From positions 62,001 to 126,000 of the forward strand of contig DASTZZ010000055.1 in the NCBI GenBank assembly GCA_035764005.1: a stretch of DNA of 64,000 bases, read 5' to 3'. The notes beneath the pieces were generated by a model that had not been told where the DNA came from, searched no databases, and saw only the letters and a list, made by a program, of their open reading frames with translations. Origin of the DNA: Terriglobales bacterium. GTDB taxonomy: Bacteria; Acidobacteriota; Terriglobia; Terriglobales; Acidobacteriaceae. The position numbers and the translations under genes were made by a program. Shown here one piece after another: positions 28,146 to 60,962 of this stretch; the stretch's first letter is position 1, and each line of letters starts with the position of its first letter.

Positions 28146-30377
28146 TCACCTCACGTCCGCAGAGCGATCTCCTTCGTAGTGCATGATGTGGTAGTAAGCC
28201 TCCCAGCCGTCCCAAAGAATCGGAGGCGAGATGTGCGTCTCTGGATCGGCGAGAAAATTGGCGAACGTCTGGACCATCTGGTGCGTGCGGTAGATTCCTG
28301 TGAGCCAGTCTCCGCGATACCAATTTTTCCACTTTCCGTATTCGCCAGCAGCTTCTGCGCGTTCAAGTTCGTCAAACGCGGCGAGCGCCTGCTTTACGTC
28401 TTCTTGAGCCTCTTGCCTGCGTCCAGCATCGGCTTCCTGGATGGATTTTGAGATAAGCAGCATGATGCGATTGCTCTGCCGATTGATCATAATCATCGCC
28501 AGCACCTCGCTCTGGTAGAAGTCGCGCCGATCTGGCGCGACCAGTGGCTCAGTCGCTAGTGCCTTCTTCCAAACCGCGTCCCACCGAGGCTGGGCATCGC
28601 CGCATTGCTGAAGTCCTCGGGCAACGGCCTGCTTCAACCATTCTTTTGGAGGTGTGGGGTTGGGACCAAATCCGAATCCGGCGCTCATGACACGCGGTGG
28701 TTCCCATTTCGGAGCTTGGCTCGGAATCGCGTAGAGCGGCGAGTCGATCATGTACGTCAGCAGCATGCGGCGGACCTCGGTGTGATAAAGCTGATCGCCG
28801 TACTCGCGGGCGGGCTCGCCAAAATGCGCGGGAGCTTTGAAATACTCCTTGTAGAGCTCAGCTAACTGCGGGGCAGCGCGCTTTCCGAACTCTTCCTCGG
28901 ACCAGCTCTTATAGAAATTGTCGCTCGCCGAAGCGCTGTCGCTCGGCAGTCCCTTCCATACCGCGTCCATCACGGCGCGTATTGACATCGTGACCGGGCG
29001 AATATCGCTGGTGTTTACCAGGTAATAGTGTGTCGCACCGGCTTTGATGTAGCGTCCCAATTCGGAAAAGCTGCGCTCGATGGGAACCATCTCTGTGAGC
29101 TGATTGGCGCGGCCGTTCATCATGGCGACGTGATCGTAAATTCCCTGCCCTGAGGCCACCTCACCTTTGTCCTGGATGTATCCATAGCCGTCGTCGGCCC
29201 AGACCGTGGAGACTTCCGGCGGAATCTTCAGATCGCCGGATTGCACCAGACGCGCGCCCTCCTGCCAGAGATTGGTCACGAATTCCGCATTGGGGCGGGC
29301 CTCGCGCACAATGCGCATCTGGGCAGCGATGGCTTTGCTGATCAGCGCTCCCAAAGCCTTGTTGTTGTCGCGCACGCTGGGATCCATCGACGCATAAGTG
29401 ACGTCGGACAATCCGCGCAAACCTACCGACCAGAGGACCTCTTGATTCGGCTCGTACAAATTCACCGCGTCCTTCCACGCGCGTTCGAGAATTTCGGGAT
29501 GCTCCGTGTAGTTGTACGGAACGTCTTTGGGCCAGCGAGCAACGTTGAGCCCAAGTGGAATCGCGTGATGCTGAGTGACGATCAATCCGCGCGCGCCGGC
29601 GGCCCTTACCTGCGGATCGTCAGGAAAGATCCACGTGCCGGGCGCAACCATGTTGCCTTTGAGGCGAAGAGTCGTCTCAAAGATCTTGTCCCAAACCTCG
29701 AGCGAGATGCCCGTCTTGTCCTTCTTCTCTCCCGGAGCCCAGCCGGTTAGCAGGTCTTCATCGTTGATGAAGAAGCCGCGGTATTTGAATTTCGGCGCGG
29801 CGAATTTTTCGTTCAACGTGGAAGGGATTGTAATCGACGCGCGGCGCGTGGGCTCATGATCGGTCCAGTAATAAAGAGGATCCACGCCAAGATACTTTTG
29901 CGAAAACTCATACACGGCATAGATGGTGCCGCGCATATCAGCGCCGGCAAGCACGATTGCATGTGACTTTCGACTGTTCCAATTCGGATTCGCGACCGAA
30001 ATAGAAAACGATTCTGCCCCGCTCAACGCCTCGGGCCGAACTGCCTCGGGAAGGTCGTTGATTGAACCGATGACGATCGTCGCCGGACCAGCTAGTTCCG
30101 TCTTGGAGACGATCCTGGGCTTCTTGCCAAAGACTTTGGCGAAATCGGACCGGAGATCTTCAGTCGCCTTCTGCAGCGGACCGGGACTGTTTTCAGAGAG
30201 CAGGATCACGGCGGAACTGTCTACCCGAAGTGTGTTGGCTGCGGTCGCGCGACCCGCGGAGTTGGTCGTTTTTTGCGCTGTGCCGAAGACTGAAATTACG
30301 CAGAACGGAACCAGGACTGCAGTTCGCACGACTTTTGGAAACGGCGCTCGCGAAAAAGTGCAACCTCTTGCGCTCAT
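28146..30377 (-). CDS. GH115 family glycoside hydrolase (xylan alpha-1,2-glucuronidase)
   Basis: A 743-residue secreted enzyme with an N-terminal hydrophobic signal (KVVRTAVLVPFCVISVFG). A GH115-like N-terminal domain is followed by KFKYRGFFINDEDLLTGWAP, TLRLKGNMVAPGTWIF, HHAIPLGLN and WADDGYGYIQ, all characteristic of GH115 enzymes, which remove 4-O-methyl-glucuronic acid from xylan. It is shorter than many full-length GH115 enzymes (about 800-980), mainly at the C-terminus, where the extra beta domain seems to be missing. No other polysaccharide-degrading gene adjoins it. Confidence 0.85.
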   Translation of the reverse strand: MSARGCTFSRAPFPKVVRTAVLVPFCVISVFGTAQKTTNSAGRATAANTLRVDSSAVILLSENSPGPLQKATEDLRSDFAKVFGKKPRIVSKTELAGPATIVIGSINDLPEAVRPEALSGAESFSISVANPNWNSRKSHAIVLAGADMRGTIYAVYEFSQKYLGVDPLYYWTDHEPTRRASITIPSTLNEKFAAPKFKYRGFFINDEDLLTGWAPGEKKDKTGISLEVWDKIFETTLRLKGNMVAPGTWIFPDDPQVRAAGARGLIVTQHHAIPLGLNVARWPKDVPYNYTEHPEILERAWKDAVNLYEPNQEVLWSVGLRGLSDVTYASMDPSVRDNNKALGALISKAIAAQMRIVREARPNAEFVTNLWQEGARLVQSGDLKIPPEVSTVWADDGYGYIQDKGEVASGQGIYDHVAMMNGRANQLTEMVPIERSFSELGRYIKAGATHYYLVNTSDIRPVTMSIRAVMDAVWKGLPSDSASASDNFYKSWSEEEFGKRAAPQLAELYKEYFKAPAHFGEPAREYGDQLYHTEVRRMLLTYMIDSPLYAIPSQAPKWEPPRVMSAGFGFGPNPTPPKEWLKQAVARGLQQCGDAQPRWDAVWKKALATEPLVAPDRRDFYQSEVLAMIMINRQSNRIMLLISKSIQEADAGRRQEAQEDVKQALAAFDELERAEAAGEYGKWKNWYRGDWLTGIYRTHQMVQTFANFLADPETHISPPILWDGWEAYYHIMHYEGDRSADVR

Positions 30378-30513: not shown

Positions 30514-30694
30514 CTGTCATCCTGAGCCCCTCTTTTGGGCGAAGGATCTCCCGCGATGCTTGCAGTAGAAAAGCATGAGCGAGGCTCTCGGCCCACACGC
30601 TCAGGGATCGGTGGTCGAAGAGCCATACCGGCTGCATTGGACTCCGACAGATCGCCGGAGATCCTTCGCCCAAAGGCGGGGCTCAGGATGACAG
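30514..30694. repeat. Palindromic intergenic repeat, family 1 (TGTCATCCTGAGC), copy A
   Basis: The left arm CTGTCATCCTGAGCCCC (30514-30530), GGGCGAAGGATCTCC and the right arm GGAGATCCTTCGCCC and GGGGCTCAGGATGACAG (ending 30694) are almost perfect reverse complements over about 38 bases. They enclose about 100 unpaired bases. A further copy of this family is at 40274-40450 and a decayed one at 55873-56016. It fills most of the 412-base gap between the GH115 gene and ldcA; there is no gene inside it. Confidence 0.88.
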
Positions 30695-30789: not shown

Positions 30790-31770
30790 GTGACTGCTGC
30801 GCGCAAATCATTATTGCGTCCACCCACTCTGAGCTCTGGAGACACGATCGGCATCATCGCTCCTGCCGGAGCGGTGGATCGTGCGGAATTTGCGGCGGGA
30901 GAAGCTCGCCTTCGGGAGCTTGGGTTCAAACTGGTCTACTCGGAAGCAATTTTTCAGCGCGACATGTACTTTGCAGGAGACGCGCGGCGACGCGTGGATG
31001 AACTGCACGAGATGTTTCGCGCGCCGGAAGTGAAGGCCATCCTCTGCGCTCGCGGCGGCTATGGCACCAATCACCTATTGCCGCATCTGGATTTTGAGTT
31101 GATCGCGAGCCATTCGAAAATATTCTGCGGCTATAGCGACGTAACTACGCTCACGGCTCTGTTTTTTCAGCGCATAGGGTTAATCGGCTTTCACGGTCCG
31201 ATGTTGGCAAAAGATTTCGCCAAGGCCAATGGAGTGCATATTCAATCCTTTCTCCGTGCCGTTTCCGGAACCCAGCCGTGGAGTCTCGACGCCGCCGACT
31301 CCCCGGCATTGCAACCGCTCCGTCCCGGCACTGCAGAGGGACGCCTCTATGGCGGCTGTCTCTCTCTTCTCGTTGCTTCGCTGGGCACACCGTATGAGAT
31401 CGAAACCGACGACGCAATCCTGTTCATCGAGGACGTCGGCGAGTGGCCCTATCGCATCGACCGCATGTTGATGCATCTTAAGTGCGCGGGCAAACTGGAT
31501 GGCGTACGCGGAATTGTGTTTGGCGAAATGAAGGATTGTGAACCGCCCGCAGGCGCCGATTACACGCTTCAGCAGGTGATCACGAGAGTTCTCGACGACA
31601 TGAACATTCCTATTGCTTTCGGCCTGCGCTCCGGACACGTGAGCGCGGGAAACATCACCCTGCCCGTCGGCGTGCGCGCACGACTGACTGTGAGTGATGC
31701 AGTGCAACTCGACATTCTCGAATCGGCAACTACGCCACAGGCAGTCGAAAGCAAGGCAGGCAGGAATTGA
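30790..31770 (+). CDS. ldcA: LD-carboxypeptidase (S66 family)
   Basis: It removes the terminal D-Ala from murein tetrapeptides in the cytoplasm during cell-wall recycling. The S66 fold starts GDTIGIIAPAGAVDR; the nucleophile serine is in IFCGYSDVTTLT, the glutamate in AILFIEDVGEWPYRIDRML and the histidine in FGLRSGHVSAGN. It starts with GTG at 30790 and overlaps the Mpl start by four bases. That pairing supports the recycling role. Confidence 0.92.
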   Translation: MTAARKSLLRPPTLSSGDTIGIIAPAGAVDRAEFAAGEARLRELGFKLVYSEAIFQRDMYFAGDARRRVDELHEMFRAPEVKAILCARGGYGTNHLLPHLDFELIASHSKIFCGYSDVTTLTALFFQRIGLIGFHGPMLAKDFAKANGVHIQSFLRAVSGTQPWSLDAADSPALQPLRPGTAEGRLYGGCLSLLVASLGTPYEIETDDAILFIEDVGEWPYRIDRMLMHLKCAGKLDGVRGIVFGEMKDCEPPAGADYTLQQVITRVLDDMNIPIAFGLRSGHVSAGNITLPVGVRARLTVSDAVQLDILESATTPQAVESKAGRN

Positions 31771-33208: not shown

Positions 33209-33369
33209 TTGTCATCCCTCGCTCCGCCACCGCGCTCTCTCCTCTTGAAGAAATTGGTTTTGCGGAGCGGGGGATCTGCTTTTTCCCAATGCAGTACAGC
33301 AGATCCCCCGCGCAGCAAAACAAACTATCAAAGCCCCCAGCACATTCGCAGCTGCGCGAGGGATGACAA
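33209..33369. repeat. Palindromic intergenic repeat, family 2 (TGTCATCCCTCGC)
   Basis: Outer arms TTGTCATCCCTCGC (33209-33222) and GCGAGGGATGACAA (ending 33369) are reverse complements. Inside, GCGGGGGATCTGCT (33267-33280) pairs perfectly with AGCAGATCCCCCGC (33298-33311). It occupies the space between mpl and the M61 protease gene. A degenerate copy lies at 54548. Confidence 0.85.
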
Positions 33370-39887: not shown

Positions 39888-40196
39888 ATGGACCGCGTTG
39901 CCATGCTGCAGGAAGTCCTTGCGCACAATCCGAAAGACACGTTCGCGCGTTATGGGCTGGCGATGGAGTACGTCAATCTAGGAGACACATCGACTGCTCT
40001 GGCGGAATTCCGAACCCTTCTCGAAGCCAATCCCGACTACGCCGCCGGCTATCAAATGGCGGCACAAACCTTGATGAAAGCCGGTCGCGATGAGGAAGCG
40101 CGGAAGATGCTTGAGGACGGCATCGCCTGCGCCATCCGCATCCGGAACCAGCACGCACGGTCGGAGATGGAAGCGATGCTGGATGAGCTGCGCTGA
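39888..40196 (+). CDS. TPR-repeat small protein
   Basis: 102 residues with two or three TPR-like helical hairpins (AMLQEVLAHNPKDTFARYGL; TALAEFRTLLEANPDYAAGY; AQTLMKAGRDEEARKMLEDG). It starts three bases after the purQ stop and is probably co-transcribed with it. It is likely a protein-interaction scaffold; partner unknown. Confidence 0.8.
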   Translation: MDRVAMLQEVLAHNPKDTFARYGLAMEYVNLGDTSTALAEFRTLLEANPDYAAGYQMAAQTLMKAGRDEEARKMLEDGIACAIRIRNQHARSEMEAMLDELR

Positions 40197-40273: not shown

Positions 40274-40450
40274 TCTGTCATCCTGAGGCCCTGTTTTGGC
40301 CGAAGGATCTCCCGCAATGCTTCAAACTTGAATGCTGTCGCGTGGCTCTGACCACAATCATGAGTTCTAGGTGGAGGAGCCTGGCGAGGGCATTTCAGTC
40401 TGAGACATTGCGGGAGATCCTTCGCGCGAAAGAGGCGCTCAGGATGACAG
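40274..40450. repeat. Palindromic intergenic repeat, family 1, copy B
   Basis: Left arm CTGTCATCCTGAG (40274-40286) with CGAAGGATCTCCCGCAATG; right arm CATTGCGGGAGATCCTTCG and CTCAGGATGACAG (ending 40450). The arms match those of the copy at 30514-30694. It fills the space between the TPR gene and the next minus-strand gene. Confidence 0.86.
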
Positions 40451-40489
40451 GAGCTGAGAACATCGCGAAATATCGTGAAGAGTGCAGCC

Positions 40490-41323
40490 TTAAGGCTGAA
40501 TTCGCGCTAATTCTTTTCGATAGAGTTCGTTCTGCGGAAATTCCTGAGAGAGTCCGGCCAGGAGCTGGCGAGCAGTGTTTCGATCTTTGTCGCGCAACGC
40601 CGCAACAGCGAGCAGCAGGCGTGCGTAAGGGGCGAGATAGTGCCCTTTTGTAGCCGTCAGCCGAAGTTTCTGCAATCCCTCTTCCCTATCCGTCTGCGCG
40701 CCGCCGAGTCGAAGAATCCAGCGGACCGGCGCCGAATTCAGACTTAGCAAATAGTTCTCAACGCCGACGGCCAAATACGCGTCGTAGCATGAGGGATCGG
40801 CTGCCAGAAGGCGTTCCGCAATGGAACGCGAACTCTTCATGTAGCTCAGTGCGGAGAGATTCTTCTTGTCGATGAGCGCGACGTAGTCGCCTTCCAGCCC
40901 ATTCGACATCACCAAAGCGAGCAAAGCGCGAGAATCCTGCGGCTTTGCCGCCAGAGTCCTATTCGCAACTTCCCTCGCCTTGGTCAGTTCCGCCTGGAAC
41001 GCAACCCGGATGGCGGGATCTGGCGAGAGCTTTGGACGCTTCTCGAATTTCTGATCGTCGATGAACAGATCCGATTCGAGAATCTTCAGCCGATTGAACT
41101 CAGAAAAAAGATATGCAGCTGCATTGGACGCGTGGCCGAGTGGATCATCCGGATAACTCTGTTCCCACTCTGAAAACGTGTGGTGAGCGCCTGCGAAATC
41201 CAGGTTGTACATCTGTTGGAATCCGCTGTTCAGATCGGACGGAATGTCGGTCGCGAATAACGAACAGCCTAAGAGCAGATAACAGAGAGCGGCTGCGAGT
41301 TTCCATTTCGAAGAGGCGATCAT
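40490..41323 (-). CDS. Secreted TPR-like protein of unknown function
   Basis: 277 residues with a signal peptide (SKWKLAAALCYLLLGCSLFA) and helical repeats: FQQMYNLDFAGAHHTFSEWE, LAPYARLLLAVAALRDKDRN. The pattern is TPR-like with degenerate repeats. It faces the family 1 palindromic repeat at its 3' end. Confidence 0.72.
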   Translation of the reverse strand: MIASSKWKLAAALCYLLLGCSLFATDIPSDLNSGFQQMYNLDFAGAHHTFSEWEQSYPDDPLGHASNAAAYLFSEFNRLKILESDLFIDDQKFEKRPKLSPDPAIRVAFQAELTKAREVANRTLAAKPQDSRALLALVMSNGLEGDYVALIDKKNLSALSYMKSSRSIAERLLAADPSCYDAYLAVGVENYLLSLNSAPVRWILRLGGAQTDREEGLQKLRLTATKGHYLAPYARLLLAVAALRDKDRNTARQLLAGLSQEFPQNELYRKELARIQP

Positions 41324-54547: not shown

Positions 54548-54677
54548 CTGTCATCCCTCGCTCCGCCGCGATATCGTCTTGACGCCAAGAATTGCAGTTG
54601 CGCAGCGGGGGACCTGCTTTCTCAGGTCGTCGATAAATTGATTCCCGCGTAGCACAACAAAGCTGCGAACCCATCTC
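54548..54677. repeat. Degenerate palindromic intergenic repeat, family 2
   Basis: The left arm CTGTCATCCCTCGCTCCGCC (54548-54567) and the inner GCAGCGGGGGACCTGCTTTC are present; the right outer arm is missing. It matches the copy at 33209-33369 over its first half. It occupies most of the gap before the enolase-superfamily gene. Confidence 0.7.
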
Positions 54678-55872: not shown

Positions 55873-56016
55873 TGCACACAAAACACAACGTGCTTCGGCG
55901 AAACTCACGCCTCAGCATGACACGGTTTTTCAAGTGCGGTTTTTTCCACCATTGTCGAATTTCAACAAAACCATGTCATCCTGAGCCCTGATGTTGGGCG
56001 AAGGACCTTGTGTTTG
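55873..56016. repeat. Decayed family 1 repeat in inverted order
   Basis: A right-arm-like sequence (GTGCTTCGGCGAAACTCACG then CTCAGCATGACA, ending about 55922) is followed by a left-arm-like TGTCATCCTGAGCCCTGATG and GGGCGAAGGACCTTGTG (55974-56014). The order is reversed relative to the copies at 30514 and 40274, so the two halves may come from two adjacent elements. The gap from 55819 to 56101 holds nothing else supported. Confidence 0.6.
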
Positions 56017-60058: not shown

Positions 60059-60796
60059 ATGACCGCACAAAGTACTAGCTCAAGCGATGTTGCGAGGCAA
60101 GTCGCTGAGAATATCTCCCACATTCGTGGACGGATTGCAGAAGCGGCAAAGCGTGCTGACCGCGATTCAGCCGGCATTACTCTGATGGCGGTGACAAAAA
60201 CTCAACCGGCAGACAAGATCATCGCCGCCTATGAAGCCGGCATCCGCTCTTTCGGTGAAAACCGCGTTCAGGAGTTCGCGGCCAAGCGTGAGCCATTATC
60301 CGATCTGCCCGACGCGACGTTTGCTCTGATCGGCCAGCTTCAGTCGAACAAAGTGAACAAAGCGATCGAGCTGTTCTCTGCCATTCACTCGGTCGATTCG
60401 CTTCGACTGGCTGAACGCATCAACGCTGCGATTGAGCGCTCCGAGAGAGAGCCTTTGCCTGTCGCAATCGAAATCAACACCGGAGATCCCGCAAAAGCCG
60501 GGCTCTCGCCCGATTCTCCCGAATTGGAACAGATTCTCATCTCTGCCCCGCGCCTGGCGCATCTCCGGATCACGGGTCTAATGACCATTCCACCTTTCAC
60601 CGAAAACCCCGAAGGAGCGCGTCCCTACTTTCGCCGACTTCGCGAGCTGCGTGACACCATCGCAAGCCGTCGGCTGTCGGGAATTTCAACGGAACTGCTC
60701 TCGATGGGTATGTCGCACGACTTCGAAGTAGCGATCGAAGAAGGCTCGACGTGCGTTCGTGTGGGCACGGCGATTTTCGGCGAGCGCAAACCATAG
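60059..60796 (+). CDS. PLP homeostasis protein YggS/PROSC
   Basis: 245 residues with the PLP-binding Lys47 in ITLMAVTKTQPADKI, then GENRVQEFAAKR, FALIGQLQSNKVNKAI (usually H in place of the Leu-Ile start), GLMTIPPFTENPEGARPYFR and LSMGMSHDFEVAIEEGSTCV. YggS buffers pyridoxal phosphate in the cell. It follows the glutaredoxin gene by 25 bases and probably shares its transcript. Confidence 0.93.
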   Translation: MTAQSTSSSDVARQVAENISHIRGRIAEAAKRADRDSAGITLMAVTKTQPADKIIAAYEAGIRSFGENRVQEFAAKREPLSDLPDATFALIGQLQSNKVNKAIELFSAIHSVDSLRLAERINAAIERSEREPLPVAIEINTGDPAKAGLSPDSPELEQILISAPRLAHLRITGLMTIPPFTENPEGARPYFRRLRELRDTIASRRLSGISTELLSMGMSHDFEVAIEEGSTCVRVGTAIFGERKP

Positions 60797-60931
60797 CAAA
60801 AACACGACACGGATCACGCGGATTAGACGGATTTTACGGATAGTTCGCTGAAAATCGAGGATTGCAGCTACTATCTTGCTTTGCGATCCGTGGAATCCGT
60901 AGCATCCGTGTGATCCGTGTCGTGTTTTTGC
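60796..60931. repeat. ATCCGTG inverted repeat with a perfect 22-base stem
   Basis: A perfect 22-base inverted repeat (60796-60817 and 60910-60931) starts GCAAAAACACGACACGGATC and encloses about 92 bases. Both arms and the sides of the spacer are made of several ATCCGTG/CACGGAT words. It begins at the last base of the yggS stop and may double as a terminator. Confidence 0.85.
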
Positions 60932-60962
60932 TGGAACACTCTCATCAGTCTGAGGATTTGCC

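Follow-up and report, generated by a model that had tools for sequence, protein, structure and literature searches.

Intergenic palindromes of a Terriglobales genome as probable gene-less derivatives of a small mobile unit with a GIY-YIG nuclease gene

What are the two long palindromes that lie between genes in a 64,000-nt stretch of the genome of a Terriglobales bacterium (GenBank assembly GCA_035764005.1, contig DASTZZ010000055.1, positions 62,001 to 126,000; hereafter the window), and what could have moved them? A preliminary description had placed two copies, at 30514–30694 and 40274–40450, in intergenic gaps, and had proposed a dispersed REP-like palindrome or a non-autonomous mobile element. 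Both copies were found at these places, each as an exact unit bounded by TGTC...GACA (Table 1), and both are intergenic: copy 1 sits between divergent ORFs (28146–30377, minus strand, and 30790–31770, plus strand) and copy 2 between convergent ORFs (39888–40196, plus strand, and 40490–41323, minus strand), with a mechanically called 103-aa GTG ORF (40342–40653) overlapping copy 2. Our analysis supports the reading of a dispersed REP-like element, most likely a non-autonomous mobile one, and points to a small GIY-YIG nuclease gene as its partner.

Structure and spread of the repeats

Both copies are head-to-head REP dimers of a REPIN-like kind, in which two inward-facing hairpin REPs flank a partly conserved centre. 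Folded as single strands, they are far more stable than dinucleotide shuffles (z of -8.6 for copy 1 and -10.0 for copy 2), and an entire unit can alternatively form a single long hairpin. The arms follow the layout TGTC-ATCCT-GAG-[inner stem-loop]-CGA-AGGAT-CTCC, where the GAG/CGA step would form tandem G.A pairs. Comparison of 14 dimers from the window's genome (those with both arms recognised around hits of TGTCATCCTGAG and the strict arm pattern, tags-inside pairs and single arms being left out) indicated that 25 of 28 arms have a self-complementary inner stem (four or more nested pairs), as against 23% of shuffled cores, and that the same inner stem occurs in both arms of only 4 of the 14. 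Since the inner stems are self-complementary yet mostly differ between the arms of one dimer, each arm is kept as a hairpin of its own. The shared arms of the preliminary description stand (in copy 1 they span 44 nt and are 93% complementary), whereas its free centre of about 100 bases does not, for the centre mostly retains GGCTC...GAGCC and the tail pair CTCC...GGAG in the 14 dimers.

Table 1 Repeat features of the window.
Feature	Coordinates	Strand	Remarks
REPIN-like unit 1, TGTC...GACA, 179 nt	30515..30693		Ends of the same kind as those of duplicated GIY-YIG units
Unit 1, left REP arm: tag TGTC, stem ATCCT/AGGAT, GAG/CGA step, inner stem GCCC/GGGC	30515..30547	+	
Unit 1, right REP arm, facing inward	30661..30693	-	
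Unit 1, tails and centre	30548..30660		Against inner ends of own-genome GIY-YIG element L179: right z 5.0, left z 0
REPIN-like unit 2, TGTC...GACA, 174 nt	40276..40449		
Unit 2, left REP arm, inner stem GGCC/GGCC	40276..40308	+	
Unit 2, right REP arm, inner stem GCGC/GCGC, unlike left arm	40417..40449	-	
Unit 2, tails and centre	40309..40416		Against inner ends of L179: left z 4.3, right z 9.7
REP arm, sister subfamily TGTCATGCTGAGGCG...CGCCGAAGCAC	55890..55922	-	Tags-inside pair with arm 55974..56006
REP arm TGTCATCCTGAGCCCTGATGTTGGGCGAAGGAC	55974..56006	+	Tags-inside partner of arm 55890..55922
Unit of second TGTC family (TGTCATCCCTCG...GGGGGAT), 66-nt arms	33210..33368		Similar arm type brackets GIY-YIG gene L348 in a same-genus genome
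Lone arm of second TGTC family (TGTCATCCCTCG...GGGGGAT)	54549..54613	+	

An inverted repeat of another type, 47 nt long and 87% complementary, lies at 60795–60932 of the window. The genome-wide search that the preliminary description had called for returned 39 exact sites of TGTCATCCTGAG in the 5.10 Mb genome and none in the reversed control; 17 full arms are recognised there by the strict pattern and 43 by a looser one. A larger second REP family, TGTCATTCCGAR...GAGGAATCC, has 150 arms in the same genome and brackets two of its four small GIY-YIG genes (L175 and L177). A contig scan for TGTCATCCTGAGN{8,18}CGAAGGATCTC found at least 120 stretches across genomes, and the matches listed include Omnitrophota, Armatimonadetes, Clostridia, Gastranaerophilales, Sulfurihydrogenibium, Acidobacteria, Patescibacteria, Verrucomicrobiota, Fibrobacter, Synergistaceae, Caldisericaceae, Bacteroidia, Gemmatimonadetes, Anaerolineae, Spirochaetales, a gammaproteobacterium and others.

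A small nuclease gene between the arms

Ten spans between arms were inspected; two of them, one in the window's own genome and one in an Omnitrophota record, hold a small GIY-YIG nuclease gene, and the rest hold ordinary genes. The product is a stand-alone protein of about 95 aa that matches Pfam GIY-YIG (PF01541), while no NCBIfam model scored above its cut-off (four proteins in each case). PF01541 has six matches in the own genome: four small ones, which are armed on both sides, and UvrC and one other, which carry no arms. The REPs flanking the four small genes belong to three subfamilies. Two of the four genes (L177 and L179) are interrupted, L179 by a frameshift.

The association was then counted in 50 genomes chosen for their REPs; PF01541 matches occur in 39 of them, and strong ones (E below 1e-15) in 30. 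We examined 90 loci among the 124 matches listed, covering those with E below 1e-12 apart from a gene at a contig end (G007:C126:10030), and one stretch (L212) was dropped, its scored neighbour gene being L184, which was already counted. Of the 58 strong genes (4 own and 54 from the REP-chosen genomes), 44 have a REP within 400 bp on each side, in 38 cases facing inward, and 54 have one on at least one side, the remaining four having none; leaving aside the own four, 40/54 are armed on both sides. Weak matches, which belong to other subfamilies, are bracketed in 1/35 cases (Fisher 5e-13 against strong genes), the sole positive (L239) being a frameshifted gene. The corresponding counts are 0/42 for Y1_Tnp genes (Fisher 3e-16) and 0/94 for shuffled sequence, and for 300-bp stretches placed at random in the window the rate of bracketing is 0.4%. 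L204 and L206 represent one locus in two related genomes, and counting it once changes the result to 43/57.

These counts come from a test with a 5-bp stem. A stricter hairpin test with a 6-bp stem, which misses the window's family by design, scored 14/59 strong, 0/35 weak and 0/42 Y1_Tnp genes, and an exact-tag test scored 32/58 strong and 1/35 weak genes. By the automatic test 14 of the 58 strong genes lack an arm on one side or on both. Among the strong genes that the exact-tag test scored as negative, several were seen by eye to carry other REP families, such as TGTCATTCCCGCGAAAGCGGGAATCC (L196 and L216), CGTCATCCCGGACTTGTTCCGGGATC (L223) and CGTCATTGCGAGG...GACGAAGCAATCC (L230).

Because the 50 genomes had been selected for REPs, the test was repeated on relatives of the host that had not been. 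It covered thirty gene loci among 100 relatives; two of these had been counted before, and the 28 new ones all have an arm on at least one side, 24 of them on both (19 inward). Across these 100 relatives (host included) the number of arms ranges from 0 to 167, the highest count of the window's pattern being that of a same-genus genome (G051), and at least two such arms occur in 32/46 relatives with a strong GIY-YIG gene versus 11/54 without one (Fisher 8e-7), a correlation that is weak within the same family alone (p 0.10). Fourteen relatives with the gene have fewer than two arms of the window's type, and these may carry other REP families, as several loci show. Eight relatives have 5–43 REP arms and no strong GIY-YIG gene, and a strong gene is likewise absent from 20 of the 50 REP-bearing genomes; draft assemblies and decay could be the cause. 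In the draft genome of Sulfurihydrogenibium yellowstonense (G006) we observed REP arms (L060, L105, L118 and L127) and found no GIY-YIG gene of this subfamily, which is possibly a counter-example and possibly a remnant.

The gene also occurs on plasmids and phage contigs. A tblastn search with one GIY-YIG protein returned 35 plasmid records, including ones from Azospirillum lipoferum 4B, Sinorhizobium meliloti, Novosphingobium aromaticivorans and Neisseria, all of which are species or genera named for CGTC-tagged REPs in Di Nocera et al. 2013 (PMC3733652). The flanks of 17 of the 35 records were read: a tag search by program detects inward tags on both sides in 9, and inspection by eye, with variant tags allowed, raises this to 14, L323, L325 and L326 being those without them. 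The GIY-YIG gene is thus found among CGTC-type REPs in species or genera of the published list. On plasmid AZO_p3 of A. lipoferum 4B a GIY-YIG element (L312) lies between sufB and sufC. By eye, four phage-contig copies close to the query have such REPs on at least one side and four distant ones do not.

The alignment of 74 stop-free rows (71 distinct) argues that the gene has been kept as a nuclease, since the positions that we take to be the catalytic ones of GIY-YIG enzymes are nearly invariant (Y9 96%, Y20 97%, R30 100%, H34 100%, E68 99% and N87 100%). An AlphaFold model of the L054 protein from a 10-sequence alignment reached a pLDDT of 94.5 (a single-sequence fold was poor, at 55.9). Its nearest folds by VIA-align are, tied, Slx1 (Z 7.7 over 92 residues) and UPF0213 (Z 7.0, 31% identity); Foldseek ranks UPF0213 first and Slx1 after it, and UPF0213 is also the nearest solved relative by sequence. 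The Z scores by themselves are not convincing, but Pfam puts the protein in the same domain family. As Slx1 is a nuclease of branched DNA, it is plausible by analogy that the small protein recognises hairpins or cruciforms.

The unit, its alleles and its targets

Among nine pairs of similar GIY-YIG copies, four are clean from tag to tag, three are nearly so and two are not. In the clean pairs similarity runs from TGTC to GACA, or at most 3 nt beyond, within unrelated surroundings; three of these pairs lie within genomes (L202/L232, L190/L231, with a unit length of 369–380 nt, and L199/L217), and the fourth joins the degraded L179 of the own genome to the intact L369 of G051 (69.5% over 559/546 nt). 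Similarity starts about 22 bases outside the tag in L196/L216, about 8 outside in L366/L367 and two bases inside in L374/L375, whereas L367/L368 share a larger region and L373/L380 have no tag-bounded unit. The REPINs share more than arms with the gene-bearing element: their right inner end matches that of L179 in 12/14 (z 4.6–9.7) and their left inner end in 5/14 (z 3.1–11.5), with mismatched-end controls reaching z 3.0 at most. Copy 2 of the window matches at both inner ends and copy 1 at the right end only. The window repeats and their cognate GIY-YIG element thus have common inner ends, as deletion derivatives would.

Comparison of alleles shows presence and absence at one site. At a site between fnrL and a response regulator gene, three aligned Sphingobium plasmids hold the element, while TomTYG64 has only CCGTCACCCCGGGTCAAGCCCGGGGTGACGG, TomTYG74 a similar palindrome and TomTYG72 another sequence; Sinorhizobium K101 has a solo palindrome where S. 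meliloti Ak57 holds the element. Such gene-less alleles, which keep a solo palindrome, fit insertion with duplication of the core and deletion between cores equally well. For the window copies themselves, no clean empty site was found in five same-genus relatives (74–80% identical upstream of copy 2, with the downstream match on another contig).

The target-site duplications that the preliminary description had suggested looking for did not emerge: direct flank repeats of at least 4 nt occur in 2 of 246 distinct units versus 1.4 expected, no clear excess, and none of at least 3 nt were seen in 28 hand-picked units. Two units share direct flank repeats of 7 nt, against none in controls. When aligned in inverted register, the flanks are complementary at 3.9 of 12 positions compared with 3.15 in permuted flanks (246 units). 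Permutation between genomes could mix base composition, and a same-locus control was therefore added, which gave 3.95 in register versus 3.05 out of register, the highest of 18 controls being 3.23 (242 units). Examples are CTCTTAAGCC/unit/GGCTTAAGAG (L036) and TTAGATT/unit/AATCTAA (L369). We read this complementarity as a preference for palindromic targets; longer ends that went unrecognised would also give it.

Possible origins and relation to known systems

We consider it quite probable that the window repeats, REPIN-like and non-autonomous, derive from a small mobile unit that carries a gene for a GIY-YIG nuclease of about 95 aa and is moved via its hairpins. Such a unit would consist, in order, of TGTC, a hairpin (the REP), the gene, a second hairpin and GACA. 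The predicted nuclease would recognise the extruded REP hairpins at both ends and cut beside the TGTC tags, and the unit would then be copied or moved to a new place, preferably one that is already palindromic, without target-site duplication. What moves could be either gene-bearing or gene-less, the latter being served in trans. Since L179, the cognate copy of the nuclease gene, is frameshifted, the family in the window's genome may now be stationary or may rely on other copies.

The nuclease could instead be a latecomer, a homing-type gene that invaded REP palindromes as its targets while something else spread the REPs. GIY-YIG is a classic homing-endonuclease fold, and the gene-less alleles of Sphingobium TomTYG64 and Sinorhizobium K101, which keep a solo double-tagged palindrome, look as if the gene had split a REP. 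Duplicated units, however, take in both whole arms, REPINs and the gene-bearing element have common subterminal sequence beyond the arms, and the other candidate mobiliser, Y1_Tnp, is nowhere bracketed among the 42 genes scored; we judge this account unlikely. A host function, in which selection maintains the repeats as regulatory or RNA-level hairpins (terminators or mRNA stabilisers, for instance) and the tie to the nuclease is a side effect, would suit their intergenic position, their strong folding and the self-complementary inner stems of 25/28 arms. It is very improbable given that copy 1 lies between divergent gene starts rather than at a 3' end, that copy number varies from 0 to 167 among 100 relatives, and that the bracketed gene is duplicated along with the repeats.

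Least credible to us is that these are classical REP/BIME elements mobilised in trans by a Y1 tyrosine transposase (RAYT), the partner that the preliminary description had named. The own genome does have 12 Y1_Tnp genes, and RAYTs of other bacteria go with hairpin REPs that bear a 4-nt tag (PMC3733652, PMC6006769). The tag here is TGTC, not GTAG or GTGG, and these REPs bracket none of the 12 own Y1_Tnp genes and none of the 30 taken from REP-bearing genomes, so that Y1_Tnp was rejected as the flanked partner. A RAYT that acts in trans with no REPs beside its own gene would still fit these counts. Fourteen of these 42 genes do have inverted repeats, of another type; an inverted repeat alone is thus no marker of association, and the TGTC/CGTC type is. 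Five own Y1 transposase genes (L013, L014, L015, L017 and L018) are strongly alike over about 700 alignment columns, four of the five having inverted repeats of another type, and recall the TIRYT genes that PMC3733652 describes in Acidobacteria.

The reading that we prefer for the window, a nuclease-bearing unit with gene-less derivatives, extends to a broader one towards which we lean slightly: that hairpin-ended mobile elements whose sole gene encodes an Slx1-like GIY-YIG nuclease of about 95 aa occur throughout bacteria, that they move themselves and their gene-less REP/REPIN progeny by structure-specific cutting of cruciform or single-stranded hairpins and insert into other palindromes, and that they supply the missing enzyme of CGTC/TGTC REPs, having arisen independently of RAYT/REPIN. 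If so, units of under 400 nt would rank with the smallest autonomous mobile elements. REPs are a common class of non-coding repeat in bacteria, and one nuclease family tied to CGTC/TGTC REPs across phyla names a candidate enzyme for them; the link would offer an explanation for many intergenic hairpins and would parallel RAYT/REPIN with an unrelated nuclease.

A search of the open-access literature found no paper that links GIY-YIG to REPs (broader queries were judged by title and the start of the abstract among the matches listed). GIY-YIG was not found there together with 'repetitive extragenic palindromic', the word GIY-YIG is absent from PMC3733652, PMC6006769 and PMC12306157, and a search by motif letters brought up no repeat paper by title among the matches listed. 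In PMC9465073 both kinds of gene stand in one table, with no link drawn between them there.

Several known systems resemble the unit in part. IS200/IS605 elements, like it, have hairpin ends and a small nuclease gene and insert without target-site duplication; the GIY-YIG unit differs in that it has no HUH nuclease, ends in inverted REPs and can be shorter than 400 nt. With Slx1 and UPF0213 the protein shares its predicted fold, and Slx1 processes branched DNA; unlike them, the protein has no second domain and is part of a repeat-bounded element. The REPINs of Bertels and Rainey (2011) are reportedly non-autonomous intergenic elements made of two inverted REPs around a spacer, on which a nuclease encoded at another locus acts. 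The window units are likewise inverted REP pairs forming a long palindrome, but their tag is TGTC rather than GTAG or GTGG and the partner gene is GIY-YIG, not HUH/Y1.

The closest likeness is to the CGTC-tagged REP superfamily, whose members, according to PMC3733652, apparently have no dedicated transposase, often bear TGTC or CCTC as their tag, have a stem starting with AT, form mostly head-to-head dimers and occur in several phyla, dRS3 of Neisseria among them. The window arms have the tag TGTC, a stem (ATCCT/AGGAT) that starts with complementary AT, and 14 head-to-head dimers; a sister subfamily includes tags-inside pairs as well, and TGTCATTCCCGCGAAAGCGGGAATCC REPs bracket the same nuclease gene in L196 and L216. 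By the same account, CGTC-tagged REPs have a single stem of 8–9 bp with a loop of 4–5 and a short tail, mostly CCA, whereas the window arms have a 5-bp stem, the GAG/CGA step, a variable inner stem and the tail CTCCCG. We therefore file the window arms as a relative of the CGTC-tagged REP superfamily that lies outside the four families described.
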